Below are positions 1 to 11,083 of a stretch of DNA of 64,000 bases, piece after piece. Each line of letters starts with the position of its first letter. Positions within the stretch are counted from its first letter, which is position 1. The notes under the pieces are model-generated. The model worked only from the letters and a program-made list of their open reading frames with translations, had not been told where the DNA came from and did not search any database. A program made the position numbers and the translations under genes. Origin of the DNA: Zoogloea sp. (GTDB lineage Bacteria > Pseudomonadota > Gammaproteobacteria > Burkholderiales > Rhodocyclaceae); the NCBI GenBank assembly GCA_016703645.1, contig JADJBR010000009.1, positions 301,935 to 365,934 of the forward strand, given 5' to 3'.

Positions 1-1
1 G

Positions 2-289
2 GCCGCGATCATATTCGACCGCGTCGTCCATGGAAACGAATCTGGAGAATCAGGGCTTTTCTCTGCGGACGCGATCAGCAGCTACTCTGAGCAGATCGGC
101 ATGGCAGTGGATACGCCTCAGGTGCAAAACATGGTTGACCGCATGATCACGGCCAACGTCATCCATCGTCAGTCACATGGCGTCTATGCGGTGGCGGACC
201 CGTTTGTTCGGCAGGCCTGGCAGCAGCGCAAGACGATACAGGTGTCGGTCCGTCAATTGCAGACCCATCCCCCTGGGGATGCAGATTGA
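2..289 (+). CDS. C-terminal end of an ATPase-like protein (partial)
   Basis: The frame is open from the first bases of the window to a TGA at 287-289, so only about 95 C-terminal residues are visible. The segment around VQNMVDRMITANVIHRQSHGVYA followed by a VADPFVRQAW-type ending looks like the winged-helix tail that closes AAA+ ATPases of the archaeal-ATPase/DUF4143-like type, where the motif reports on the final domain. No Walker motifs are in view because the N-terminal part lies outside the window. The exact family is an inference from the tail only; it could be another winged-helix protein. A strong terminator follows about 45 bp after the stop. Confidence 0.55.
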   Translation, partial: AAIIFDRVVHGNESGESGLFSADAISSYSEQIGMAVDTPQVQNMVDRMITANVIHRQSHGVYAVADPFVRQAWQQRKTIQVSVRQLQTHPPGDAD

Positions 290-330
290 ACGATCCCGCC
301 GTCGGCCAGATTTAAAGAGCCACCCGATTG

Positions 331-368
331 GCAAAAAGGCCGGTTCCGCAAGGAACCGGCCTTTTGCT
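331..368 (+). terminator. Rho-independent terminator
   Basis: A long perfect stem (AAAAGGCCGGTTCC, loop GCAA, then the complement) ends in CTTTTGCTTT. It lies downstream of the partial gene at 2-289 and about 70 bp before the converging 3' end of the gene at 438. The A-rich left arm means it could also serve the minus-strand gene, so it is probably bidirectional. Confidence 0.8.
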
Positions 369-437
369 TTACCCGAGGGGTCGAATACATCCGACCCCAC
401 AAAAGCATCAGGCCACTGGCCCGTCTGCCCCCTGCCC

Positions 438-2789
438 TCAGAGCCGGCTCTGGATCTCCTCAATGAAACCCTGCATGCCGGTGCGGATGTTGCCTGCGTT
501 GCCTTCGTCGGTATCGATGTGCATGGCCAGGCGGTATGCCGGGTTCACCCGCACCACCACGTCACCGAAGATGAGTTCGCGCTCGCCTTCGATCCGCACG
601 CGGACGATGTACTTGTCGCGCACACGGAAACGCAGGGCGTCTTCGGGGGTCATGTGGATGTGGCGCTGGGCACAGATGACGCCGCGCTCGATGGTGGTGC
701 TGCCGGCCGGGCCTTCGAGGGTGATGCCCGGGGTGTTCACCAGGTCGCCGGATTCGCGGATGGGGGGCTGGATGCCGACCTTGAACTGCTCGGTCATGGC
801 GATCTCCACCTGAGTCTCCTTGCGGGTCGGGCCGAGGACACGCACGTTGGCGATGCGCCCCTTGGGGCCGACCAGGTGCACCTTCTCGGCGCAGGCGAAC
901 TGGCCGGGCTGGGACAGTTCGTGCTCGGGGGTGAGCTGGTGGCCGGGGCCAAAGAGCTTGTCCACATCGGCCTGGCACAGATGCACGTGGTGGGCGGAGA
1001 TCTCGATGGGGATGGCGGGCGCGTCTTCGGCACGGGCTTCGAGGAGGAGCTGGTTGCGTTCGATGGCGCGCAGGGTTTCCCAGGCCACCAGACGCTCATC
1101 GTCGTTGGTGATGACGAGGATGGTGACCGGTGAATCGTCGGCGGAGATGATGGCGTGGGAGCCCACCAGACCGAGGTTGCGGTTCTTCTCCTCATCCAGC
1201 TTGATGCCCATGTAGCCCAGGCCCTGGCAGGCCAGGCTGCGCACGGTGGCGCTGGTTTCGCCCACGTCGCCGGTGAAGGCCAGCACGTCGATGCCCCCCA
1301 TGGCCGCCACGTAGGCGCCGATGTTCTTGCGCACCTGGTAGCAGAAGGCCTTGTGGGCCAGCAGGGCGCGGTGGTGGCCGTCGCTGGCGGCGGTCTCGAT
1401 GTCGTGGATGTCGCTGGAGATGCCGGAGATGCCCTTCAGGCCGCTCTCGCTGTTGATCAGGCGGGAGAGATCCTCGGTGCTCATGCCGTGGTGTTCCATC
1501 AGGTGGATCATCACCGCCGGGTCGATGCTGCCGGAGCGGCTGGGCATGATCAGGCCGTCGGTGGGGGTCATACCCATGGTGGTATCCACCGAGCGACCGT
1601 GGTCGATGGCGCACAGGGAGGCGCCGATGCCCAGGTGACAGGACACCACCTCGAGTTCGCCGAGGGGGCGCTGGACGACTTCGGCAGCCTTCAGGGAAAC
1701 GTAGCGGTGGGACGTGCCGTGGAAGCCGTAACGGCGGATGCCCTCCTGCTTGTAGAGGTCGTAGGGCAGGCCGTAGAGGTAGGCGTAGGGCGGCAGGGTC
1801 TGGTGGAAGGCGGTGTCGAAGACCGCCACGTGGGGCACGCCGGGCAACTGCTTCATGGCCATGCGGATGCCCTCCACATTCACCGGGTTGTGCAGGGGCG
1901 CAAACACGGAGAGGGCTTCGATCTCGGCGATCACCTGCGGGGTGATGACCACGGCACTGGAGAACTTGCTGCCCCCATGGACGACCCGGTGCCCGACGGC
2001 AGTGACGTCCTCGGGATGGAAGGTGAAGGCGTCACCGAGCAGGTGGGTGGCTTCCTGCATGACCCGGAACAGCTCGGAGATGGGGAAGGGCTCGCGCATC
2101 TGCGTCTTGACCTGGGAGCCCACCATCACGGTGATGCACACCACGGCCGGATCGGCGTTGTCGACGATGCCATGGACGTCGGAACCCATGTCCTTGGTGT
2201 CGTAGATGCCGAAGTGGATCTGGCTGAGGCCCACGTTGAGGGCGACCACCTTGCCGGGCTGGCCGGTGACCAGGGACAGGGCGTAGGGGTCGTCGGACTT
2301 GGCTGCGCTGGGGGTCTGCCCGGCAACGATGTCCAGACTCATGTTGCGCATGCGGTCGAGCAGCAGGCGCGAAAGGTAGGCAATGGCCTTGGGATTGGTC
2401 AGGATGTGGGCGTTGAAGACCGCATGGGGGATCAGCAACACGTAGCAGCGGTTACCGGCGATCACGTCGGCGGACAGGCGCTCGCCGGTGAGGATGGACA
2501 TCACGCCAAAGACGTCACCCGGCCCCAGTTGGCTCAGCACCGAACGGGTGCCGGTGTTGTCGGTGACGGAGATCTCCGCATGGCCGGTGATCAGCACGCC
2601 GAGGTACTTGCTGTCGTCGCCGGTCTCAAGGATGGCCTCGTTGCCTTCATAACTGGCCAGTTGGCCCTGGCTGACGATGTCGTCCACCTTGTCGGCCGGG
2701 AAGTGCTCGAAGAGGCGCACCTGTTCGAGGAAAAACTGCTTCAGGTCAATTTCGCTCACGCTGATTCTCGCTTCATTGGGTGGTGCCAT
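438..2789 (-). CDS. cNMP-binding-like / acetate kinase / PduL phosphotransacylase fusion
   Basis: This protein of about 783 residues joins three units. Residues about 15-150 form a cyclic-nucleotide-binding-like beta barrel (GPGDVFG...GERLSADV). The acidic residue of the usual FGE phosphate cassette is replaced (FGVMS), so ligand binding is uncertain. Residues about 180-590 are an acetate/propionate kinase with GHRVVHGG, FDTAFH, RRYGFHGTSH and FTGDVGET. Residues about 594-783 are a PduL-type phosphate acyltransferase with zinc-site histidines in HHVHL and QRHIHM. Family knowledge says PduL and AckA interconvert acyl-CoA, acyl-phosphate and acetate with ATP formation, so this polypeptide could carry both steps. 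An ATG at 2789 was chosen; an upstream TTG at 2825 with TGAGG before it would add 12 residues. The kinase N-terminal NxGSSS-type loop is altered (NVGLSQIHF). Confidence 0.85.
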   Translation of the reverse strand: MAPPNEARISVSEIDLKQFFLEQVRLFEHFPADKVDDIVSQGQLASYEGNEAILETGDDSKYLGVLITGHAEISVTDNTGTRSVLSQLGPGDVFGVMSILTGERLSADVIAGNRCYVLLIPHAVFNAHILTNPKAIAYLSRLLLDRMRNMSLDIVAGQTPSAAKSDDPYALSLVTGQPGKVVALNVGLSQIHFGIYDTKDMGSDVHGIVDNADPAVVCITVMVGSQVKTQMREPFPISELFRVMQEATHLLGDAFTFHPEDVTAVGHRVVHGGSKFSSAVVITPQVIAEIEALSVFAPLHNPVNVEGIRMAMKQLPGVPHVAVFDTAFHQTLPPYAYLYGLPYDLYKQEGIRRYGFHGTSHRYVSLKAAEVVQRPLGELEVVSCHLGIGASLCAIDHGRSVDTTMGMTPTDGLIMPSRSGSIDPAVMIHLMEHHGMSTEDLSRLINSESGLKGISGISSDIHDIETAASDGHHRALLAHKAFCYQVRKNIGAYVAAMGGIDVLAFTGDVGETSATVRSLACQGLGYMGIKLDEEKNRNLGLVGSHAIISADDSPVTILVITNDDERLVAWETLRAIERNQLLLEARAEDAPAIPIEISAHHVHLCQADVDKLFGPGHQLTPEHELSQPGQFACAEKVHLVGPKGRIANVRVLGPTRKETQVEIAMTEQFKVGIQPPIRESGDLVNTPGITLEGPAGSTTIERGVICAQRHIHMTPEDALRFRVRDKYIVRVRIEGERELIFGDVVVRVNPAYRLAMHIDTDEGNAGNIRTGMQGFIEEIQSRL

Positions 2790-2962
2790 AACCGACAGGA
2801 TAGTCCCGCTGCTGCGATGCAGCAAAGCACATTTGCCTCATCGCCATCCGCAATCGCCGTTTGGTGGCCACGGCACGAGGGGCAGCATGCGGCGCCGCAA
2901 CAGGCTAATCCTCTCCTGTGACGGTCATTCGCGGGAAATCTGAAGGTTTGCTGCCGAAGAGT

Positions 2963-3151
2963 TCAGTTCGGGCCGTCGTCACGGCCCATGAAGCTTCTGC
3001 TCACCTTGCGGAGGACGTCGATGTTTTGCCGGAAGGCCCGGCAACCCCGACAAAAGAGGAGGTGCAAGCGCAGAGCCAGGTACTCACGCTTGCTCAGGGG
3101 TCGGTCAAGGGCTTCGGAGAGGAGCCGGGTGGTGTGCTTGCAGGTCAGCAT
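2963..3151 (-). CDS. Small zinc-finger anti-sigma factor (ZAS/zf-HC2 type)
   Basis: This 62-residue protein carries C4 and an H30-x3-C34-x2-C37 arrangement, the ZAS signature of zinc-binding anti-sigma factors. There is no membrane segment, so it would be a soluble regulator. Its start overlaps the end of the sigma factor gene by 7 bp, the usual sigma/anti-sigma coupling. By analogy with other hvf/buf/gig operons it should hold the sigma factor inactive until metal or thiol stress alters the zinc site; that is inference. It is the last gene of the operon starting at 5746. Confidence 0.75.
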   Translation of the reverse strand: MLTCKHTTRLLSEALDRPLSKREYLALRLHLLFCRGCRAFRQNIDVLRKVSRSFMGRDDGPN

Positions 3152-3732
3152 CGGGCCGCCTCCGCGCCGAACCAGCCCTCCGACAGGCACTGGCGCAGGC
3201 CGGCACGGGCCCGATGGAGGATCACGTTGCAGTTTCCGGTGCTCAGGTCGAGGGTGGTGCAGATCTCGTCGGTCTCGAGACCGAGGAACTCGCGCATCAT
3301 GAACACCCGGGCGGTGCGGGCCGGCAGCACGTCCAGGCAGATCTCGAAGACTTGCCAGAACTGCTGCTGTTCGAGGGCTTCCTCGGGGTTGCCCCACGGC
3401 CGCGGACGGCTCACCGGGCTCCAGTGTTCGTTCTCCCGGAACAGGGCGTCGAAGGCTTCGTCCATGTCGGCCTCGTCACGCTCCAGGCTGGAGACCTGGA
3501 CCGTGCGCCCCCGCTCGCGCAGGAAGTCGATGACCTTGTGGCGCACGATGGTGAACAGCCAGGTCTTCAGGGCCGAACGGCCGGCAAAACGCTCGATGCC
3601 CTTGAGGGCGGCCTCTATGGCCTCCTGCACGGCATCCTCGGCGGCTGCGTCATCCTGGAGCTGCAGGCGGGCAAACTTGAGCAGCTGGGGACGGAAGCCG
3701 GAGATGAGTTCGGCGTAGGAGATGGCAGTCAT
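3145..3732 (-). CDS. ECF RNA polymerase sigma factor of the hvf/bufferin operon
   Basis: A sigma-70 region 2 is visible (LQLQDDAAAEDAVQEA, SALKTWLFTIVRHKVIDFLR), as is region 4 (LPARTARVFMMREFLGLETDEIC, NCNVILHRARAGLR). At 195 residues the length is typical of ECF sigma factors. ATG 3732 was chosen because recognisable homology begins there. An ATG at 3810 overlaps the upstream hvfC stop as ATGA and would add 26 low-complexity residues, so translational coupling from 3810 is a real alternative. The gene sits between hvfC and the zinc-finger anti-sigma gene, and very probably autoregulates the operon from the candidate promoter at 5823-5847. Confidence 0.85.
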   Translation of the reverse strand: MTAISYAELISGFRPQLLKFARLQLQDDAAAEDAVQEAIEAALKGIERFAGRSALKTWLFTIVRHKVIDFLRERGRTVQVSSLERDEADMDEAFDALFRENEHWSPVSRPRPWGNPEEALEQQQFWQVFEICLDVLPARTARVFMMREFLGLETDEICTTLDLSTGNCNVILHRARAGLRQCLSEGWFGAEAARC

Positions 3733-3806
3733 GGCATGCAGATGAATGCGGTTGGGAACAGACGGCGGGGCCGGCTGCGCCCCTCTGTTCAGCATAGCAG
3801 GGAAGC

Positions 3807-4541
3807 TCATGCTTTCGTCCCCAGCAGTACGCCAAGCCGACGCAGATCGGCCAGACTGTGCCGGCCGAAATCCATGAAGGCGGCGTCCGGCGCCCGCCCC
3901 AGTTCGGCGGCAAGGCGTGCCAGGGCGTCGCCCCCGGATACCCGGCCGTCGGCCAGGAGGGCCAGCAGGCGCGCCGTGGCGGTGCTGGTCTCGACAAAAC
4001 ACACCTCATCGGCGGCATCGCGGAACACCAGCAGGTGCACGGGTGCCGGGCGCCGCGGACGGAAGGTCGGCCCGATGCGGTGCACGGGCCACTGGAAGGC
4101 CAGGGACAGGAGGGCCGGATTGACGACGGGACACCCGGCCATGAGATCGCCGTCGGCCAGGCCGGCGGGCGGCACGGTGTCCATCACGTCCACGGCCAGC
4201 TCGGCCCATTCGTAACGGGCCAGCTCGACAAACCAGCGCGGCAGGCGCTGGCCGCTGCCGGCCTCCAGGTAAGTGACGAACTCCCGCGGGATCTCGCGGA
4301 ACCAGGACGTGGCGCAGGGCCAGTCCCGGTAGAACGCCCGGCACAGGCGGGTCCACCGGACCTCGCCGAGGCAGTCCCGGCCCACCGGAAAGCAGCGGTC
4401 GAGGAAGCTGCGCAGGTTGTTGAAAAGCAGTTCCTCATACACCGCCATGCGCTGGCGCGGCACACCGGCCGGCACAGGGGCACGGGCGGCGGACCGGATG
4501 CGCCGGCCAAAGGCCAGCTGGAACTCGCGCAGGCGGCTCAT
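3807..4541 (-). CDS. hvfC: DUF2063 family RiPP maturation partner (HvfC/BufC)
   Basis: A 244-residue protein with the DUF2063 N-terminal domain (LREFQLAFGRRIR, RMAVYEELLFNNL, CFPVGRDCLG, IPREF) and a C-terminal region similar in layout to other HvfC/BufC proteins. In characterised systems this protein binds the precursor peptide and the MNIO enzyme and acts as the recognition partner. The start overlaps the hvfB stop as ATGA (4538-4541), so the two are translationally coupled. DUF2063 proteins are often labelled putative DNA-binding, but operon context favours a maturation role. Confidence 0.85.
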   Translation of the reverse strand: MSRLREFQLAFGRRIRSAARAPVPAGVPRQRMAVYEELLFNNLRSFLDRCFPVGRDCLGEVRWTRLCRAFYRDWPCATSWFREIPREFVTYLEAGSGQRLPRWFVELARYEWAELAVDVMDTVPPAGLADGDLMAGCPVVNPALLSLAFQWPVHRIGPTFRPRRPAPVHLLVFRDAADEVCFVETSTATARLLALLADGRVSGGDALARLAAELGRAPDAAFMDFGRHSLADLRRLGVLLGTKA

Positions 4542-5368
4542 CGCACGGCTCCGGCAGCCTGCAGGTGGGCGATGCGGGCCACCTCCTCCGCCAGTTCGGC
4601 CAGGGGCGGAAAGCCGAAATCCCGCTCCAGGCAGGTGGGCACCGGGCCGGTGTGGCGGTAGGCCTCGGCCAGCAGATCCCACACCGGGTCGATGACCGGC
4701 GCGCCGTGGGTGTCGATGAGCAGGCCGTCGTCCTCCACATGGTGGCCGGCCACGTGGATGTAGCAGGTGCGCGCCAGCGGTAGCGCGCGGAGAAAATCGA
4801 AGGGGTCGAAGCCGAAGTTGCGGGCATTGACCAGGATGTTGTTCACGTCCAGGTGGAGCAGGCAATCAGCCTCGTCGACAACGGCGCGGATGAAGCTGGC
4901 CTCGTCCATCTCGGCGCCGGGGGGCGTGACGTAGCGGGAGGCGTTTTCGATGCCGATGCGGCAACCGAGCACGTCCTGGGCCTGGCGGATGCGGGCCGCC
5001 GCCCAGTGCACCGCCTCGCCGGTACAGGGCAAGGGCAGCAGGTCGTAGAGCTGGCCGGCGTCGTTGCTCCAGGACAGATGTTCGGTGTACAGGCCGATGC
5101 CGTGCGTAACCATGAAGTCGCGGGTGCGCAGGAGCAGGTCGGTATCGAGGGGCCGTTGGCCGCCCACCGACAGGGACAGGCCGTGGCACACGAAGGGGTA
5201 GCGTTCGGTGAAAGCACGCAACTGGCGGGCCGAACGCCCGCCCATGCCGGCCCAGTTCTCCGGGGCCAGCTCGAAAAACTGCACGGCGTCCGGAACACCG
5301 GCTTCCAGCTCGGGCAACAGCTCGCGGCGGAAACCCAGCCCCGCCCCGACGGGCATGCGTGCGTGCAT
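4538..5368 (-). CDS. hvfB: MNIO-family (DUF692) multinuclear iron oxidase (HvfB/BufB)
   Basis: A 276-residue TIM-barrel-type DUF692 protein with the expected metal-ligand stretches: GLYTEHLSW, IGIENASRY, LLHLDVNN, YIHVAGHH, DTHGAPV and CLERDF. The family (MbnB, ChrH, HvfB, BufB) uses a di- or tri-iron centre to convert peptide cysteines to oxazolone/thioamide or thiooxazole groups. ATG 5368 was chosen because AGGAG lies 8 bp upstream; a longer reading to 5416 lacks this. The precursor gene ends 54 bp upstream. The neighbouring DUF2063 gene, Cys-rich precursor and ECF sigma pair make the assignment firm at family level; the exact modification chemistry is inferred. Confidence 0.92.
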   Translation of the reverse strand: MHARMPVGAGLGFRRELLPELEAGVPDAVQFFELAPENWAGMGGRSARQLRAFTERYPFVCHGLSLSVGGQRPLDTDLLLRTRDFMVTHGIGLYTEHLSWSNDAGQLYDLLPLPCTGEAVHWAAARIRQAQDVLGCRIGIENASRYVTPPGAEMDEASFIRAVVDEADCLLHLDVNNILVNARNFGFDPFDFLRALPLARTCYIHVAGHHVEDDGLLIDTHGAPVIDPVWDLLAEAYRHTGPVPTCLERDFGFPPLAELAEEVARIAHLQAAGAVR

Positions 5369-5422
5369 GTCAGAGACTCCTGGCACGGGGCGGGGCTGCC
5401 CAACCCCGTGCAGCACGGATTC

Positions 5423-5746
5423 TTACTTCTTGTCGGCGGCGCACTTGCCGTCCATCTTCTTGTCGCCGCCGCAGCTGGCGTCCTTCTTCTTGTCGGCGGC
5501 GCATTTGCCATCGGCCTTCTTGCCGGCAGCACACTTGCCCTCCATCTTCTTGTCGCCGGCACACTTGCCGTCCATCTTCTTGTCCCCGCCACACTTGCCG
5601 TCCTTGGCCTTGGTGTCGGCCTGGGCCAGTTGATAGCCCCCTTCCAGGGACTTGGCGGCAAAGGGGTTTTCACCGGCGTGGGCGGCACCGGCCAGGGCCA
5701 GGGAAGTGGCAAGGGCAGCGGTCAGGCCGGAAGTGGTCTTTTTCAT
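5423..5746 (-). CDS. hvfA: HvfA/bufferin-type RiPP precursor with six Cys decapeptides
   Basis: A 107-residue precursor. Residues 1-24 are a Sec signal peptide ending AHA; residues 25-45 hold the ENPFAAKSLEGGYQLAQA leader typical of HvfA/bufferin precursors. Residues 48-107 are six tandem 10-residue units of the form x-D-G-K-C-x-x-D-K-K, with cysteines at 52, 62, 72, 82, 92 and 102, exactly 10 apart. Unit 5 reads DASC. In the family, the Cys of EGKCG motifs is modified by the MNIO enzyme and the product is exported to the periplasm to bind copper or another metal. The start is firm: CAGGAGAG precedes the ATG. The gene heads the operon hvfA-hvfB-hvfC-sigma-antisigma. Confidence 0.9.
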   Translation of the reverse strand: MKKTTSGLTAALATSLALAGAAHAGENPFAAKSLEGGYQLAQADTKAKDGKCGGDKKMDGKCAGDKKMEGKCAAGKKADGKCAADKKKDASCGGDKKMDGKCAADKK

Positions 5747-5822
5747 GATGATCTCTCCTGTTGGAATCGGGGGCGCCGGCAGGTGGCCGACGGGCCACGC
5801 AGATACCTGGTGCTGGTCATTG

Positions 5823-5847
5823 GTCGGGCGGACGGGGCACTTGTTAC
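5823..5847 (-). promoter_or_regulatory. Candidate ECF sigma promoter of hvfA
   Basis: On the minus strand GTAAC (5843-5847) and CGAC (5823-5826) are separated by exactly 16 bp, close to the GTAAC-N16-CGA layout used by SigF-like ECF factors that drive DUF692 operons. Transcription would start near 5815, leaving about a 70-nt leader before hvfA. This is inference from the motif and position only. Confidence 0.45.
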
Positions 5848-5955
5848 ACGCACCATGAAAATATTTTTCGGCAGGCTGGATCCGTGCTGCCGCGCGGGCG
5901 CCCCCAAAGCATGGCGCCCATTGCCCCGAGGGCCATCCGCCCTGCCGGAGGCCGC

Positions 5956-6429
5956 TCAGTGATCGGCCAGGTTGTTGAAGATCTCTTCGAGATCCTGGCT
6001 GATCCGCATCAGGCGGGCTTCGCTGAGGTCGCCGTAGCCACGTATGAAGATCTTGCTGGTGGCCTGCTGGATCTCGGCCAGCAGGTTTTCGCCCTTGGGC
6101 GTCATGGAGACATCGGTGATGCGCGCGTCGTCCGGGTTGGTGGCGGTCTGCACCAGGCCCTCGTCACGCATGCGCTGCACGATGCGGGTGATGGTGGACA
6201 GCTTGATGATGGCGTGGGTCGCGATCTCGGAGACGCTGAGGGTGCCGTGGTTCTTCAGCAGATGGAGCACGCGCCGGGTCGGAACGTCGGTGCCCAGTTT
6301 CTTGAGGATCTGCTCCATCTGCTGGGTGTAGATGGCATGAACCCGGGCCAGCCAGTAGAAGGGAAACTCCTCGTAACGGAAGTTCTCGCTGGTCGGCAGG
6401 AAGCGGCTGTTCTTTTTTGCGCGTGGCAT
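5956..6429 (-). CDS. MarR-family transcriptional regulator (candidate IacR)
   Basis: The protein of about 157 residues carries a winged-helix MarR domain: VPTRRVLHLLKNHGTLSVSEIA, then the recognition helix region IKLSTITRIVQRMRDEGLV and the wing DDARITDVSMTPKG. ATG 6429 was chosen, where the basic start MPRAKKNSRF begins; a longer frame to 6495 is possible. iac clusters for indole-3-acetate degradation usually carry a MarR repressor (IacR). This gene sits on the same strand downstream of the iac/liv island, separated only by a degraded IS5-family element, so it is the best local candidate. A role in hvf regulation is less likely because that operon has its own sigma pair. Confidence 0.75.
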   Translation of the reverse strand: MPRAKKNSRFLPTSENFRYEEFPFYWLARVHAIYTQQMEQILKKLGTDVPTRRVLHLLKNHGTLSVSEIATHAIIKLSTITRIVQRMRDEGLVQTATNPDDARITDVSMTPKGENLLAEIQQATSKIFIRGYGDLSEARLMRISQDLEEIFNNLADH

Positions 6430-6557
6430 ATCGGAATGACGGTTTGAAGCCCTTGAAACCCGGAGTCGGCCAGGCCGGCCACCGGCCTCGGGCATGATAC
6501 CCGCTCGGGCGCCTGTCCGGCAGCGCGCTGGACGACACCCCGCCTGCCCTGCCCTCA

Positions 6558-7776
6558 GAGGGTGTACCCAAAATGATTAGCTTGCCAGTCTGGTTGCAAG
6601 GATACGCGCTTCGACCAGCCAGACCCAAGCGACCGGTGCCCACGAGGAGCGATCGTGATGGGCCATGAGGCGACGGGCGCGCTCGTTCCATGCGTGGGTG
6701 CGCTCGACCACCCAACGCTTGGCCTGAACGACGAAACCGCTGGGGACCACTTCCGGCCACAGCGGCTGTTGGGCATCGCGCCAGGTGCCGGTGCTGCGGT
6801 TGCCAGGGTGGCGAACGACCTCGACGCTCATGTTCGGGTGCGCGGTCTCGATGGCCTGCGCACATTGGCCGCCGTACGCGGCGTCGGTATAGAGCTTCTT
6901 GAGGCCGGGCACCTTGGTAGCGGCCTGTGCGACCACGTCAGCCGCGGCATCACGATCCTGCACGCTGGCCGCCGTGACGGTGACGGCCAGCAGCAGCCCC
7001 AGGGTGTCGACAACGAGGTGGCGTTTGCGCCCCTTGACCTTCTTGCCGGCGTCGAAGCCCGTCATGCCGCCCTGGGCGGTGCTGCGTGTGCTCTGCGCGT
7101 CGATGATGGCCGCAGTCGGCTCGGGGTTGCGGCCCACGCGGGCGCGCCACTGCGCGCGCAGCCGGTCGTGCATCGCTTCGAAGGTGCCGGCCGCCGCCCA
7201 GCGGCAGAAGGCCTTGTACACCCCCGCGCCAGGGCGGAAAGCTCTTGGGCAGCAAGCGCCAGGCGCCGCCCGTACGGACCACGTAGCAGCACGCATCGAC
7301 CATGCGCTTGCGGGCGTGCGGCCGGCGCGCCGCGCCCGCCTTGACGCTCGAACAGGTCCGCCACCAGCGCCCATTCCGCGTCGGTCAGATCGGTGTTCAT
7401 GCCGCTGGGGCCATCCTGGCGCCGATGGGCGTCCGTGTACCCGAAGCGCAGCGGCGCCCCGCCTTGCACGGCAGCGCGCTCGCTGGGCTTGCGCTGCGGC
7501 TTGAGCCTGTCGATGCCCGCCTGCCGCAGCGCCTTGCGGACCGTGGCCGTGCACACCTCAGCGCCCGTGCGCCGGTGCAGCTCGCGCGTCACTTCCTCCA
7601 GCGACGAGCGCGGCTGCTCACGCGTGATCGCGCGCAGCGTTTCGATGTGCTGCGCGTTCAACGCCGGCTTGCGCCCTACTCTGCCTTGATTTGTTCCGTC
7701 GTTCTCCACCGAGCGCTCCATCCATTCTGGGTCCGGAGTGAGCATAGACGGAATTGTTTATTTTGGCTACACCCTC
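6558..7776 (-). mobile_element. IS5-family insertion sequence, degraded
   Basis: The element is 1219 bp with near-matching terminal inverted repeats: GAGGGTGTACCCAAAAT at the left and, on the other strand, GAGGGTGTAGCCAAAAT at the right. Its size and transposase fit IS5/IS1031-like elements. The flanking trinucleotides are TCA and TGA, not an exact direct repeat, so a target duplication is not demonstrated. The right end abuts a palindromic repeat (7776-7904) whose own arm begins with a similar GAGGGTGTG string. The insertion separates the MarR gene from the hemerythrin/liv operon. Confidence 0.8.
6577..7745 (-). pseudogene. IS5-family transposase, broken by two frameshifts
   Basis: Three reading frames must be joined to give a full transposase. 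One encodes an HTH segment and MNTDLTDAEWALVADLFERQ (to about 7310). A second encodes VDACCYVVRTGGAWRLLPKSFPPW (about 7230-7310). A third encodes VYKAFCRWAA through IIDAQSTRS, FDAGKKVKGRKRHLVVDTLG and the C-terminal WVVERTHAWNERARRL. DDE-type motifs are recognisable, but two frame changes imply an inactive copy. One of the shifts might be a programmed frameshift; two are unlikely to be. Confidence 0.8.
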
Positions 7777-7904
7777 TGAGAGGGTGTGAAGAAATCGTAG
7801 CGAGCGGTTCGAGTTCGCCCGGAGAAGCGCAGCCGTACAAGAGTACGGTGAGCATCGCAGGGGCGAAATCGGGCCGCGCAGTAGATTTATTCACACCCTT
7901 TCAG
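7776..7904. repeat. Palindromic 3'-end repeat, copy A
   Basis: This 129-bp segment is bounded by inverted arms of 21 bp that match at 19 positions (7776-7796 and 7884-7904). A central hairpin, GCCGTAC-loop-GTACGG, is also present. The right arm includes the stop codon of the hemerythrin gene. The same sequence recurs twice at 42720-42972. It encodes no plausible protein. Confidence 0.8.
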
Positions 7905-8500
7905 TCGGCCTTGTAGGGGCCGGCCCCCAGGCCGATGGGCTCGGGGGCGGCGGCCACCAGGCGCGAGAAGATGCGTGCAAAATCCTCCGGGCCATCGGGC
8001 GGACGGGTGCCGCCCATGGGGTCGGGCTTGCCGGCAAAGCCGGCATTCGCAATGGCCCAGTCCTCGGCGGTGAAATACTTGTGCACCAGGGGCAGGATCT
8101 CCCGCTCCTCGCGCATCATGTGCTCCCGATAAAAGGCGGCGAAGGCCTCGAAGGCGGCCACGAAACCCTCGAAGGCGCCGGGCTCGCCGTCGGCATAGCG
8201 CTGCACGGCCACTTCGAGGGCCTTGATGCGGTCGTTGCCGCGGGCATGCTCCTCCTCCAGGGCCGCGATGGCTTCGGCCCCCTCGGCGGTGCGCTGCTTG
8301 AGCAGGGCGAAGATGAACTGGTCTTCCTTGGGGTGGTGACGTTTCTCGGGGTAGGCGTCCAGGTAGTGAACCATGGCCCGCAGCAGGCCCATGTCGGGCT
8401 GCAGGGTGCCGGAGCCGATGTCCCGGAGCATCAGCCGGATGGCATGCAGGATTGCCGCCAGGGACTGATGTTCGTCGATCATGATGCGCAGGGCTTCCAT
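7901..8500 (-). CDS. Hemerythrin HHE-domain protein
   Basis: A 199-residue four-helix hemerythrin-like protein. The ligand-type motifs MIDEHQSL, HYLDAYPEKRHHPKED and the later FYREHMMREEREILP supply the histidine and acidic residues expected for a di-iron site. AAGGAG lies before the ATG. It starts 22 bp after the livF stop on the same strand, so it is the last gene of the liv operon. A role in oxygen or NO sensing/storage linked to the oxygenase pathway upstream is speculation. Its stop codon lies inside palindromic repeat copy A. Confidence 0.85.
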   Translation of the reverse strand: MEALRIMIDEHQSLAAILHAIRLMLRDIGSGTLQPDMGLLRAMVHYLDAYPEKRHHPKEDQFIFALLKQRTAEGAEAIAALEEEHARGNDRIKALEVAVQRYADGEPGAFEGFVAAFEAFAAFYREHMMREEREILPLVHKYFTAEDWAIANAGFAGKPDPMGGTRPPDGPEDFARIFSRLVAAAPEPIGLGAGPYKAD

Positions 8501-8522
8501 TCGTGTGTCTCCTTGATTGCGC

Positions 8523-9284
8523 TCAGGTGGCGAGCATCGCCTGGTGTTTGCTGCCGAGGCCCAGATAGGCGTCGATCACGCGGGGGTCGTCGGCGAGCTG
8601 ATGGGCCGGGCCGTGCATGGCGATCTGGCCGGTCTCAAGCACATAGGCATAGTCGGCCACCTGCAGGGCGGCGCGGGCGTTCTGCTCCACCAGCAGAATC
8701 GACACGCCGCGACGGCGCAGCTCGGCGATGATGCGGAAGATCTCGCGCACGATCAGCGGCGCCAGGCCCAGGCTGGGCTCGTCCAGCATCAGCAGCTTGG
8801 GCTTGGCCATCAGGGCGCGGCCCACCGCCAGCATCTGCCGCTCGCCCCCCGACAGGGTGCCGGCCAGCTGGCTGCGCCGCTCCTTGAGGCGCGGGAACAG
8901 GGTATAGATCTCTTCCATGGTGTTGGCGTGATCGCGCAGGCCGCTGCGGTAGCGCTGGAAGGCGCCGAGCAGCAGGTTGTCCTCCACGCTCATCTCGCTG
9001 AACAGCTCGCGCTTCTCGGGCACCAGGTTCATGCCCCGGGCCACCATGCGCTCCACCTCGGGCACCACCTCGATGCTGCCGTCGAAGGCCACCTGCCCCT
9101 TCGATTCGAGCACCCCCATGATGGCCGACAGCATGGTGGTCTTGCCGGCACCGTTGGGGCCGATCACGGTGACGATCTGGCCCTCGCCCACCGTCAGGCT
9201 GGCATTGCTGAGGGCTTCGACCTTGCCATAGGAGACGCTGAGGTCGCGGATCTCCAGCACGGTGTTGTTCGGATTTGCCACCAC
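8523..9284 (-). CDS. livF: Branched-chain-type ABC transporter ATPase LivF
   Basis: A 253-residue ABC ATPase with Walker A GPNGAGKTT, signature LSGGERQ, Walker B LLMLDEPSLGLAP and H-loop region ILLVEQNA, all in the LivF pattern. Two adjacent GTG codons (9284, 9281) are the possible starts, both inside the 3' end of the upstream livMG gene, which it overlaps by 91 bp in another frame. It forms the second ATPase of the importer encoded by 8523-13369. Linkage to the iac genes suggests uptake of indole-3-acetate or a related aromatic acid, an inference from position and the shared operator. Confidence 0.88.
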   Translation of the reverse strand: MVANPNNTVLEIRDLSVSYGKVEALSNASLTVGEGQIVTVIGPNGAGKTTMLSAIMGVLESKGQVAFDGSIEVVPEVERMVARGMNLVPEKRELFSEMSVEDNLLLGAFQRYRSGLRDHANTMEEIYTLFPRLKERRSQLAGTLSGGERQMLAVGRALMAKPKLLMLDEPSLGLAPLIVREIFRIIAELRRRGVSILLVEQNARAALQVADYAYVLETGQIAMHGPAHQLADDPRVIDAYLGLGSKHQAMLAT

Positions 9285-11083
9285 TCCACCCCTCCCAGAT
9301 AGGCTTCGAGCACTGCCGGATTTTGCTGCACCTCGTCGGGCAGGCCTTCGGCGATCTTCTGGCCGAACTCCATCACCACCACCCTATCCACCAGGTTCAT
9401 CACGAAGTCCATGTCGTGTTCGACGATCAGCGTGGCCAGACCTTCGGCGCGCAGTTTGCGCAGCAGGTCGGCGAGGGCCTGCTTCTCCTTGTGACGCAGG
9501 CCGGCGGCCGGCTCGTCGAGGAGGAGCAGGCAGGGGTCGGCACACAGGGCCCGGGCGATCTCCAGGATGCGCTGCTGGCCCAGGGCCAGGCTGCCCGCCT
9601 CGGCGTGCATGAACTCCCCCAGCCCGACCCGCTCGATCTGCCGGGCGGCCTCCTTGAGCAGGCGTGCCTCCTCGGTGCGGTCCAGGCGCCAGGCCGCCGA
9701 CAGCACGCCCTTGCCACCGCGCAGGTGGGTGCCGATGGCCACGTTCTCGAGCACGCTCATGGTGGGCAGCAGCTTGACGTGCTGGAAGGTACGGCTCATG
9801 CCCATACGCGCGATCTGGCGCGAATCCTTGCCGGCCACCGGCTGACCCAGGAACAGCACCTCGCCGGAAGTCGGCGTATCCACCCCGGAGAGCTGGTTGA
9901 ACATGGTGCTCTTGCCGGCGCCGTTGGGGCCGATCAGGGCCAGGATCTCGCCCGCCTTCACCTGCAGGTTCATGTTGTTGTTGGCCACCAGGCCGCCGAA
10001 CTTGCGGGTCACGTTGCGTGCTTCGAGGATCACCTCGCCGGCCTTCGGCGGGGTGCGGCGGGGCAGCGCTTCGGCGGACGCGTCAATGTGCTTGTGGTCC
10101 ACCCGCACCGGCACCAGCCGGCGCAGCAGCGGCCACAGGCCGCCCCGGGCGCGCTGCAGCACGACGATCATCATCAGACCGAAGACGATCACCTCGAAGT
10201 TGCCCGCCTGACCCAGCAACTTGGGCAGGATGTCCTGCAACCACTGCTTGAGCAGGGTGATCACCCCCGCCCCCACCAGGGCGCCCCAGACATGCCCCGC
10301 ACCGCCGACCACGGCCATGAACAGATACTCGATGCCGATGTGCAGGCCGAAGGGCGTCGGATTGACGAAGCGCTGCATGTGGGCATACAGCCAGCCCGAG
10401 GCACAGGCGTGCAGGGCGGCGATCAGGAAGATCACCATGCGCGAGCGGGAGGTATCCACGCCCATCGCCTCGGCCATCACGATGCCGCCCTTGAGGGCAC
10501 GGATGGCCCGCCCCTCGCGGGAGTCGAGCAGGTTCTGGGTGGTGAGCACCGCCACCAGCACGAAGGCCCAGATCAGGTAGAAGATGCGCTCGCCGGTATC
10601 CAGGCTCAGGCCGAAGAGGCTGATCGGCGGAATGCCGTTGAGGCCGGAATGCCCGCCCAGGCTCTCCGAGGTGCCGAACAGGAAGTACAGGCTCATGCCC
10701 CAGGCCATGGTGCCGAGGGGCAGGAAGTGGCCCAACAGGCGCAGGGTCAGGGAGCCCAGCAGCACGGCCACCACGGTGGTCAGCAGCAGGCCGGCCAGCA
10801 GGGTCAGCCAGGGGGAGGCGCCCACCCAGGCAATCCAGCCCGGCAGGGAAGGCAGGGTGGTGAGGGCCGCGGTGGTGTAGGCGCCAAGGCCCACAAAGGC
10901 CGCCTGACCGAAGCTGGTGAGGCCACCCACCCCGGTGAGCAGCACCAGCCCGAGGGCCACCAGTGCATACAGGCCGATGTAGTTCAGCAGGGTCACCGAG
11001 AAGGGCGACAGGACGACGGGCGCCAGTGCGAGCAGGGCCAGGAAGCCCCCCAGCACCAGGCGCGGCGAGAGCTTGGCGTTCAT
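9194..11083 (-). CDS. LivM-LivG fusion: ABC permease joined to ATPase
   Basis: A 629-residue protein. Residues 1 to about 330 form a LivM-type permease with many hydrophobic segments and the GLTSFGQAAFVGLGAY motif. From about residue 355 comes a LivG ATPase with Walker A GPNGAGKST, signature LALGQQR, Walker B LLLLDEPAAGL and H-loop LIVEHDM. No stop or restart separates them, so permease and ATPase are one chain. The LivG part would normally end near EAYLG; here it runs on about 30 residues across the start of livF. GGAGGAAGAAGA precedes the ATG at 11083, and the start overlaps livH as ATGA (11080-11083). Such fusions are known in some aromatic-acid transport operons. Confidence 0.85.
   Translation of the reverse strand: MNAKLSPRLVLGGFLALLALAPVVLSPFSVTLLNYIGLYALVALGLVLLTGVGGLTSFGQAAFVGLGAYTTAALTTLPSLPGWIAWVGASPWLTLLAGLLLTTVVAVLLGSLTLRLLGHFLPLGTMAWGMSLYFLFGTSESLGGHSGLNGIPPISLFGLSLDTGERIFYLIWAFVLVAVLTTQNLLDSREGRAIRALKGGIVMAEAMGVDTSRSRMVIFLIAALHACASGWLYAHMQRFVNPTPFGLHIGIEYLFMAVVGGAGHVWGALVGAGVITLLKQWLQDILPKLLGQAGNFEVIVFGLMMIVVLQRARGGLWPLLRRLVPVRVDHKHIDASAEALPRRTPPKAGEVILEARNVTRKFGGLVANNNMNLQVKAGEILALIGPNGAGKSTMFNQLSGVDTPTSGEVLFLGQPVAGKDSRQIARMGMSRTFQHVKLLPTMSVLENVAIGTHLRGGKGVLSAAWRLDRTEEARLLKEAARQIERVGLGEFMHAEAGSLALGQQRILEIARALCADPCLLLLDEPAAGLRHKEKQALADLLRKLRAEGLATLIVEHDMDFVMNLVDRVVVMEFGQKIAEGLPDEVQQNPAVLEAYLGGVEWWQIRTTPCWRSATSASPMARSKPSAMPA

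Follow-up and report, generated by a model that had tools for sequence, protein, structure and literature searches.

A group of five genes in the genome of a wastewater-type bacterium, Zoogloea sp. (GenBank assembly GCA_016703645.1), raises the question of which modified peptide it produces, and of what its built-in regulator responds to and controls. The genes lie in a stretch of 64,000 nucleotides (contig JADJBR010000009.1, positions 301,935 to 365,934), referred to here as the window. All five are encoded on the minus strand, from 5746 down to 2963, and follow one another as precursor peptide, MNIO enzyme, DUF2063 partner, extracytoplasmic function (ECF) sigma factor and zinc-finger anti-sigma factor of the ZAS type. 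The initial annotation, which had described a complete, self-contained operon for sensing and buffering a metal, had recognized these five products, and their positions and profile matches confirmed all of them. We consider it likely that they form a Lys-Cys captophorin operon of Zoogloea, oxazolin- or fontiphorin-like and of the Neisseria sigma-E/MseR type, which has been reduced by the loss of DoxX and works as proposed below. The genes are as follows:

5423-5746, minus strand: precursor gene, 107 aa, 6 Cys, signal peptide ending AHA (by eye)
4538-5368, minus strand: MNIO gene (HvfB family, DUF692), 276 aa counted from ATG
3807-4541, minus strand: DUF2063/RRE partner gene (HvfC family, PME1), 244 aa
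3145-3732, minus strand: ECF sigma gene, 195 aa, Sigma70_r2 and r4_2
2963-3151, minus strand: ZAS anti-sigma gene, 62 aa, zf-HC2 and NF052368

A longer open reading frame (ORF) for the MNIO, up to 5416, starts at GTG. The MNIO and DUF2063 genes overlap by 4 nt and the sigma and anti-sigma genes by 7 nt, with gaps of 54 nt between the precursor and MNIO genes and 74 nt between the DUF2063 and sigma genes. The whole host genome holds a single MNIO gene and a single HvfC-type gene, both those of this operon. An HvfC-type gene above the cut-off was found in 18 of 23 Zoogloea genomes, and the order B-C-(DoxX)-sigma-anti-sigma recurs in all 17 whose contig extends beyond C, so that the arrangement of the genes is beyond chance.

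Profile scores place the two enzymes in the HvfB and HvfC families. The MNIO gave 321 bits with PF05114 and 375.9 bits with the NCBIfam HvfB model NF003818 (cut-off 360), and its partner gave 79.7 bits with PF09836, 87.1 bits with NGO1945_C and 255.8 bits with the HvfC model NF050145 (cut-off 142); the nearest solved structures by sequence are 3bww (E 1.9e-66) and 3dee (NGO1945; E 2e-15), respectively. An Arg-Arg and an Asp-Phe position have been described as the substrate determinants of Lys-Cys MNIOs (PMC13097082), and the window MNIO has R14-R15 and D250-F251, as do the enzymes of that type. Among 29 MNIOs compared, Arg-Arg and Asp-Phe were common to the 21 of Lys-Cys type, save two with Asp-Thr (the L038 row, of Lys-Cys type, was unreadable at the Arg sites), and in all eight of other types the Asp was kept and the second Arg and the Phe were lost. 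The branch would therefore be that of the Lys-Cys captophorins and oxazolin. Captophorins is the current name of this peptide class, whose members bind copper through 5-thiooxazoles, and oxazolin itself has been revised to carry 5-thiooxazole instead of oxazolone/thioamide (PMC13097082). The initial annotation had offered oxazolone/thioamide or thiooxazole groups as products; the latter agrees with the 5-thiooxazole published for the branch, and the former has been superseded for oxazolin.

The precursor consists of a signal peptide (by eye), the segment NPFAAKSLEGGYQLA and six [DE][GA][KS]C[GA] motifs, which read DGKCG, DGKCA, EGKCA, DGKCA, DASCG and DGKCA, with all five gaps being 10 residues. 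Five of the six are Lys-Cys 5-mers of the form [DE]GKC[GA], the remaining one being DASCG, and no Pfam match, DUF2282 included, was found for the protein. The NPF...GY(x)QLA segment is present in 18 of 19 compared precursors (the exception is L052), and its conservation against variable Cys motifs makes it a candidate site for binding of the DUF2063/RRE partner. A motif spacing of 5 residues, as in the fontiphorin substrate, occurs in the relatives L032, L034, L044, L045, L047-L049 and L052 and nowhere in the window precursor.

The sigma factor scored 62.3 bits for region 2 and 41 bits for region 4, and is 53-99% identical to the sigma factors at the same place in 17 relatives. The anti-sigma factor matched zf-HC2 (33.2 bits) and the antisigmaE model NF052368 (72.7 bits, cut-off 50), and carries the motif Cys4...His30-x3-Cys34-x2-Cys37, which was found in all 20 aligned rows (in L051 one place earlier) and occupies the positions given for meningococcal NMB2145/MseR (PMC2893595). 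No membrane segment was seen within its 62 residues. These features indicate a soluble ZAS protein, and a pair of the Neisseria ECF sigma-E/MseR type, in which the sigma factor is followed by a small soluble ZAS anti-sigma factor.

Two further elements lie upstream of the precursor gene:

5819-5848, minus strand: ECF-type promoter TGTAACAA-N14-CGACCAAT (full letters TGTAACAAGTGCCCCGTCCGCCCGACCAAT)
5858-5869, minus strand: A/T-rich block GAAAAATATTTT, 5' of the -35 box, seen in the upstream alignment, with a putative UP-element-like role

An alignment of 17 upstream regions showed the A/T-rich block, TGTAAGAA, a spacer of 13-15 nt and CGACTAAT or a form close to it. The operon promoter is of the GTAAG...CGTCTAA type and resembles the Neisseria sigma-E consensus GTMAGBWTT-12/13-CGTCTAAH (PMC2893595), with two differences in the -10. 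In the 4.99 Mb host genome the strict pattern has a single match, the operon promoter, and the reversed pattern has 0; in the 23 Zoogloea genomes it has 15 matches against 1 reversed, 11 of them before the operon and 4 before a thioredoxin-like gene. From 80 named sigma loci we obtained 37 with a clear MNIO, the precursor being findable in 33 of those, and the motif stood no more than 200 nt upstream of the precursor in 29 of these 33 operons, compared with 56 of 6600 random windows from the same loci. Once Zoogloea and the one outside locus used for motif derivation were dropped, it was present in 16 of 18. A strict scan of 199 family genomes (with the downstream genes of three Zoogloea sites taken from the earlier Zoogloea analysis) yielded 35 sites compared with 4 for the reversed pattern. 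Targets with a known link were 15 MNIO operons, 4 thioredoxin or CcdA genes and 1 secreted MsrB-MsrA, while 1 site lay directly before a sigma/anti-sigma pair and 1 stood approximately 1.3 kb ahead of one. Since the sigma factors of Neisseria and Haemophilus are known to have MsrAB as their second target, the MsrB-MsrA site in the family supports the same kind of promoter. The family models thus bear out the earlier description of an HvfABC/oxazolin-like operon for a ribosomally synthesized and post-translationally modified peptide with its own sigma/anti-sigma pair, and the sigma-type promoter fits autoregulation of this operon.

The pattern also led outside the operon. The host genome has a thioredoxin-like gene at C7:1200155-1200535 (PF00085, 40.8 bits; signal peptide by eye) with the motif at C7:1200066-1200094, and 3' of this gene is one for a CcdA/DsbD_TM-like membrane protein (PF02683, 58.6 bits for the L122 copy). 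The thioredoxin orthologue was found in 10 of the 23 Zoogloea genomes, the host included (64-100% identity to the query), all of which have the operon, and the loose pattern lies upstream of it in 9 of the 10, the tenth being off by one -10 base. It was not found in the 5 Zoogloea genomes without an HvfC-type operon, three of which are 72-82% complete. In other genera, the order Trx-CcdA-sigma-anti-sigma was seen in L122-L125 (two Curvibacter, one Hylemonella and one Burkholderiaceae), and Trx-sigma-anti-sigma, with its own motif before Trx, in L160-L162 and L165 (Azonexus, Dechloromonas and a betaproteobacterium). The gene start was read in 8 of the 11 thioredoxin loci outside Zoogloea (L192, L124 and L125 being left out), and TGTAAG-N-CG[AT]C stood upstream in all 8; the pattern as written misses L191, L122 and L123 because the -10 end differs there. 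Greedy ORF clustering of 41 loci without MNIO gave much reverse-frame noise and was kept out of the counts. The sigma factor of the operon appears to control the distant thioredoxin-CcdA pair as well, and the unit is not self-contained as had been claimed, because a like promoter precedes this pair in the same genome and the pair is linked to the same sigma genes in other genera. Among the papers listed in a small literature search, none linked captophorins with thioredoxin/CcdA, and the word "thioredoxin" is absent from the main texts of PMC12452194 and PMC13097082. In L160 and L162, three like promoters were seen in about 5 kb, before ccdA, the captophorin operon and the thioredoxin-sigma-anti-sigma genes.

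Nor is the operon complete, as the initial annotation had it, since DoxX, which belongs to the reference operons and is frequent though not universal in such clusters, is missing from it, and PF07681, the DoxX-like family searched, had no match in the host genome (as a positive control, the search gave a match in 7 of 14 genomes). Among the Zoogloea operons, doxX lies between the DUF2063 and sigma genes in 6, is missing from 10 (the window's included) and is represented by a decayed piece in L043; in the operons of other genera in the DoxX/thioredoxin comparison it is present in 11 of 15. Four relatives without DoxX have a 4-nt overlap between the C and sigma genes. The 74-nt gap between C and sigma in the window contains the following:

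3790-3805, minus strand: likely 16-nt DoxX remnant CTTCCCTGCTATGCTG, one letter off the intact L044 doxX
3791-3799, minus strand: extended -10-like TGCTATGCT, inside the putative DoxX remnant

The intact L044 doxX reads CTTCCTTGCTATGCTG at its FLAML codons, and CTTCCCTGCTATGCTG is likely what is left of this gene. Twelve of 17 Zoogloea operons, some with and some without doxX, retain the element TGCTATGCT, and our guess would be an extended -10 for a basal sigma/anti-sigma transcript; a transcript of NMB2144-2145 has been seen without longer ones in meningococci (PMC2893595). The promoter role remains a guess because a consensus scan of 2700-6100 showed no sigma-70 promoter.

Across 33 genomes with Lys-Cys operons, 14 had thioredoxin and no doxX, 14 doxX only, 3 both and 2 neither (Fisher p 8.6e-5), that is, thioredoxin was present in 14 of 16 without doxX compared with 3 of 17 with it; of the two genomes with neither, one is 77% complete and one carries the decayed remnant. 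In this table G007, whose contig stops after C and whose genome gave no PF07681 match, was scored as lacking doxX, and G022 as lacking an operon doxX because its one DoxX match sits in a separate DUF2282-type operon. DUF2282-type or incomplete loci were left out (L120, L128, L152, L163, L168, L170, L177 and L180), two of the excluded genomes, G062 and G070, having a middling thioredoxin score. In a quick tree built from the operon proteins, both doxX and thioredoxin changed 6 times (for doxX, well-supported branches forced 5 of the changes), and after correction for ancestry the 5 independent pairs comprised 2.8 opposite, 0 alike and 2.2 tied (p 0.25, not significant). The exclusion of DoxX and thioredoxin is thus a lead, not a result. 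Both genes are held by G072, G066 and G067, as expected if the thioredoxin pair preceded the loss of DoxX, although the tree cannot separate gain from loss. The thioredoxin-CcdA pair may stand in for the lost DoxX. We hold more tentatively, as a possibility short of an even chance, that the two are interchangeable within one sigma/ZAS regulon, DoxX having been lost in Zoogloea, in the L160/L162/L165 group and in L175, where thioredoxin is under the same promoter, and that DoxX acts as a membrane thiol-redox partner of the thiooxazole peptide, keeping the peptide or its targets reduced. If this were true, the response would serve periplasmic thiol repair as much as copper buffering. Elsewhere DoxX has been named merely as a possible extra factor (PMC13097082), and protection from other stresses has been suggested for it (PMC12452194).

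In the mechanism we propose, the small cytoplasmic ZAS anti-sigma factor would hold the ECF sigma factor until damage to its thiols or zinc site, by an oxidant or by a thiol-reactive metal such as Cu or Au, releases it. The released sigma factor would start transcription at 5819-5848, and would amplify itself because its gene lies in the operon. The HvfB/HvfC-type enzymes would convert cysteines of the precursor to 5-thiooxazoles in the cytosol, and the modified peptide would be exported and would bind Cu(I) in the periplasm. The same sigma factor would turn on the distant periplasmic thioredoxin and the CcdA/DsbD-like membrane protein, which would pass electrons outward so that oxidised thiols are repaired.

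A rival reading, which extends the initial annotation, is a complete, self-contained unit in which the anti-sigma factor senses copper or gold and this operon alone responds. Such a unit would suit the copper binding of captophorins (PMC13097082), and responses have been reported to gold and copper for a Legionella GIG operon and to heavy metals for an ECF sigma factor of Caulobacter, both papers naming DUF692/DUF2063. The Cys/His site of a ZAS protein would be open to attack by soft metals. However, DoxX was not found, and no metal regulator or transporter was recognized among the ORFs looked at in window 1-9300 (partly by eye). We set the metal-only, self-contained unit aside as unlikely: a second promoter target lies elsewhere in the host genome, and the studied relative RpoE2/HrsE responds to hypochlorite, driving the hvf/doxX operon of H. 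influenzae once HOCl is present (PMC7907618). A thiol- or oxidant-type signal would fit the relatives better than metal sensing. That the operon instead belongs to the bufferin 1 (DUF2282) type, under NrsF-type control as in Caulobacter, is hardly credible. Zoogloea G008 (Z. ramigera) and G005 do have a DUF2282 precursor with MNIO, DoxX, a related sigma/ZAS pair and a like promoter, but the window precursor has no DUF2282 match, its MNIO reaches 248.8 bits of the 310 needed for the BufB maturase model NF050167 and has Arg-Arg and Asp-Phe where L057-L060 have Lys-Pro and Asp-Asn/Ser, and the anti-sigma factor is a ZAS protein rather than NrsF. Bufferin 1 was rejected on the precursor, the MNIO models and the MNIO residues (the Buf2 branch was not scored by a model of its own), and of the earlier label "HvfA/bufferin-type" what stands is the Lys-Cys captophorin/oxazolin branch.

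CcdA-like proteins often serve cytochrome c maturation, and the thioredoxin-CcdA pair could be a housekeeping cytochrome-c/disulfide system with the motif before it by chance, as might be suspected from the count of the loose motif in the host genome, which is no commoner than the reversed control. We regard this as improbable, given that strict sites fall on the pair both in the genus (4 of 15) and in the family (4 of 35), that it is directly linked to sigma/anti-sigma genes in two other groups of genera, and that no orthologue was found in the 5 operon-less Zoogloea genomes, three of them 72-82% complete. Still less probable is a degenerate or silent operon, in which the loss of DoxX and the drift of the repeats have ended the pathway: DoxX has gone from the lineage of the window, a decayed remnant is seen in G021 and the precursor has a DASCG motif and a weak HvfA score, but the five reading frames are intact, the promoter and key residues are conserved, and 4 relatives without DoxX have overlapping C and sigma genes.

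Several observations weigh against a working captophorin operon of the sigma-E/MseR type. The precursor scored just 19.3 bits with the HvfA model NF050188 (cut-off 95), so that its class rests on anatomy and it is not filed as HvfA itself. Its motifs include one DASCG and four in which Ala follows Cys, and its complete modification at a spacing of 10 residues is a prediction, the precedent being fontiphorin, for which a two-repeat substrate with motifs 5 residues apart was modified and a one-repeat substrate was not (PMC13097082). As written, the promoter motif is missing in 4 of the 33 operons, and for 13 of the 35 family-wide sites what follows is a gene of another kind or the end of a contig (arsenosugar-type in 5, DUF1223-like by eye in 1, without a known link in 6 and a contig end in 1). 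The loose pattern has 4 matches in the host genome compared with 5 for the reversed control, and the thioredoxin site therefore rests on position and conservation, not on count. The msrB locus of the host genome has no such promoter site, and a role of this sigma factor there was dropped. Finally, meningococcal sigma-E responded to none of the oxidants tried (PMC2893595).

The closest known system is the rpoE operon of Neisseria meningitidis, NMB2140-2145 (gonococcal NGO1948-1943, gonophorin ngoABC), a sigma-autoregulated operon in which precursor, MNIO, DUF2063, ECF sigma and ZAS anti-sigma genes stand together (PMC2893595, PMC2954202, PMC13097082), with the same anti-sigma residues and a like promoter (PMC2893595). 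The gene set of the window is therefore already known, being that of the Neisseria operon without DoxX, which is the first gene there; the second target is MsrAB in Neisseria, whereas in Zoogloea it would be thioredoxin-CcdA. The oxazolin (hvf) operon of Haemophilus influenzae shares the HvfB/HvfC families and an HOCl-induced ECF sigma factor, RpoE2/HrsE, with a small ZAS anti-sigma factor (PMC7907618), but there the sigma pair is unlinked to the peptide operon, DoxX is present and the repeats are EGKCG, whereas the operon of the window has the pair within it, no DoxX and [DE][GA][KS]C[AG] repeats at 10-residue spacing. Fontiphorin (Fontimonas thermophila fonABC) is alike in its Lys-Cys precursor, MNIO Arg-Arg and Asp-Phe and PME1 partner, and differs in the 5-residue spacing of its minimal substrate and in that no sigma pair is described for it in the available part of PMC13097082. 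The bufferin 1 and 2 operons of Caulobacter and Legionella also use an MNIO and a DUF2063 protein to modify a signal-peptide precursor, for copper buffering (PMC12452194), but with a DUF2282 or 6/12-Cys precursor, an MNIO of another subfamily and, for Buf1 clusters, a sigma factor with NrsF.

In L057-L060, from other Zoogloea genomes, a DUF2282 (bufferin 1) operon with a DoxX-like gene lies behind a like promoter (DUF2282 was model-checked for L060 alone, at 85.5 bits), and in L059 and L060 a related sigma/ZAS pair follows, so that the same type of regulator serves both peptide classes within the genus. Arsenosugar-type genes were seen behind like ECF promoters in L223, L243, L245 and L234, with related sigma/ZAS pairs nearby (L134-L159 in part, by eye). 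ArsS scored 436.3 bits for L223 (cut-off 300) and the TIGR04283 glycosyltransferase 268.7 bits for L234 (cut-off 182), the remaining arsenosugar calls being by eye; sigma factors of this kind may control such clusters. Around the operon there were 6 terminator-like sites (1.8 in shuffles), none 3' of the anti-sigma gene, and no RNA family matched at the gathering threshold in 2700-6500. Directly downstream, 438-2825 on the minus strand is a single frame with a cyclic-nucleotide-binding domain, acetate kinase and a PduL-type phosphotransacylase (58.9, 430.1 and 257.2 bits), so that a single chain holds an acetate pathway and a possible nucleotide sensor. Upstream, a MarR-type gene at 5956-6447 is preceded by ORFs at 6577-7745 on the minus strand that, judged by eye, resemble fragments of an insertion-sequence transposase spread over more than one frame.

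As far as the literature compared shows, what is new here is the Zoogloea set itself, the regular 10-residue spacing of the motifs, the loss of DoxX, of which a remnant likely persists, and the connection to thioredoxin-CcdA through the promoter. A genus in which some species have DoxX and others have perhaps replaced it by a thiol-reducing pair, under one promoter, would make the role of DoxX approachable by a swap experiment. In environmental bacteria, the promoter evidence connects the copper-binding captophorins with thiol repair in the periplasm, comparable to the link with methionine sulfoxide reductases in Neisseria and Haemophilus.

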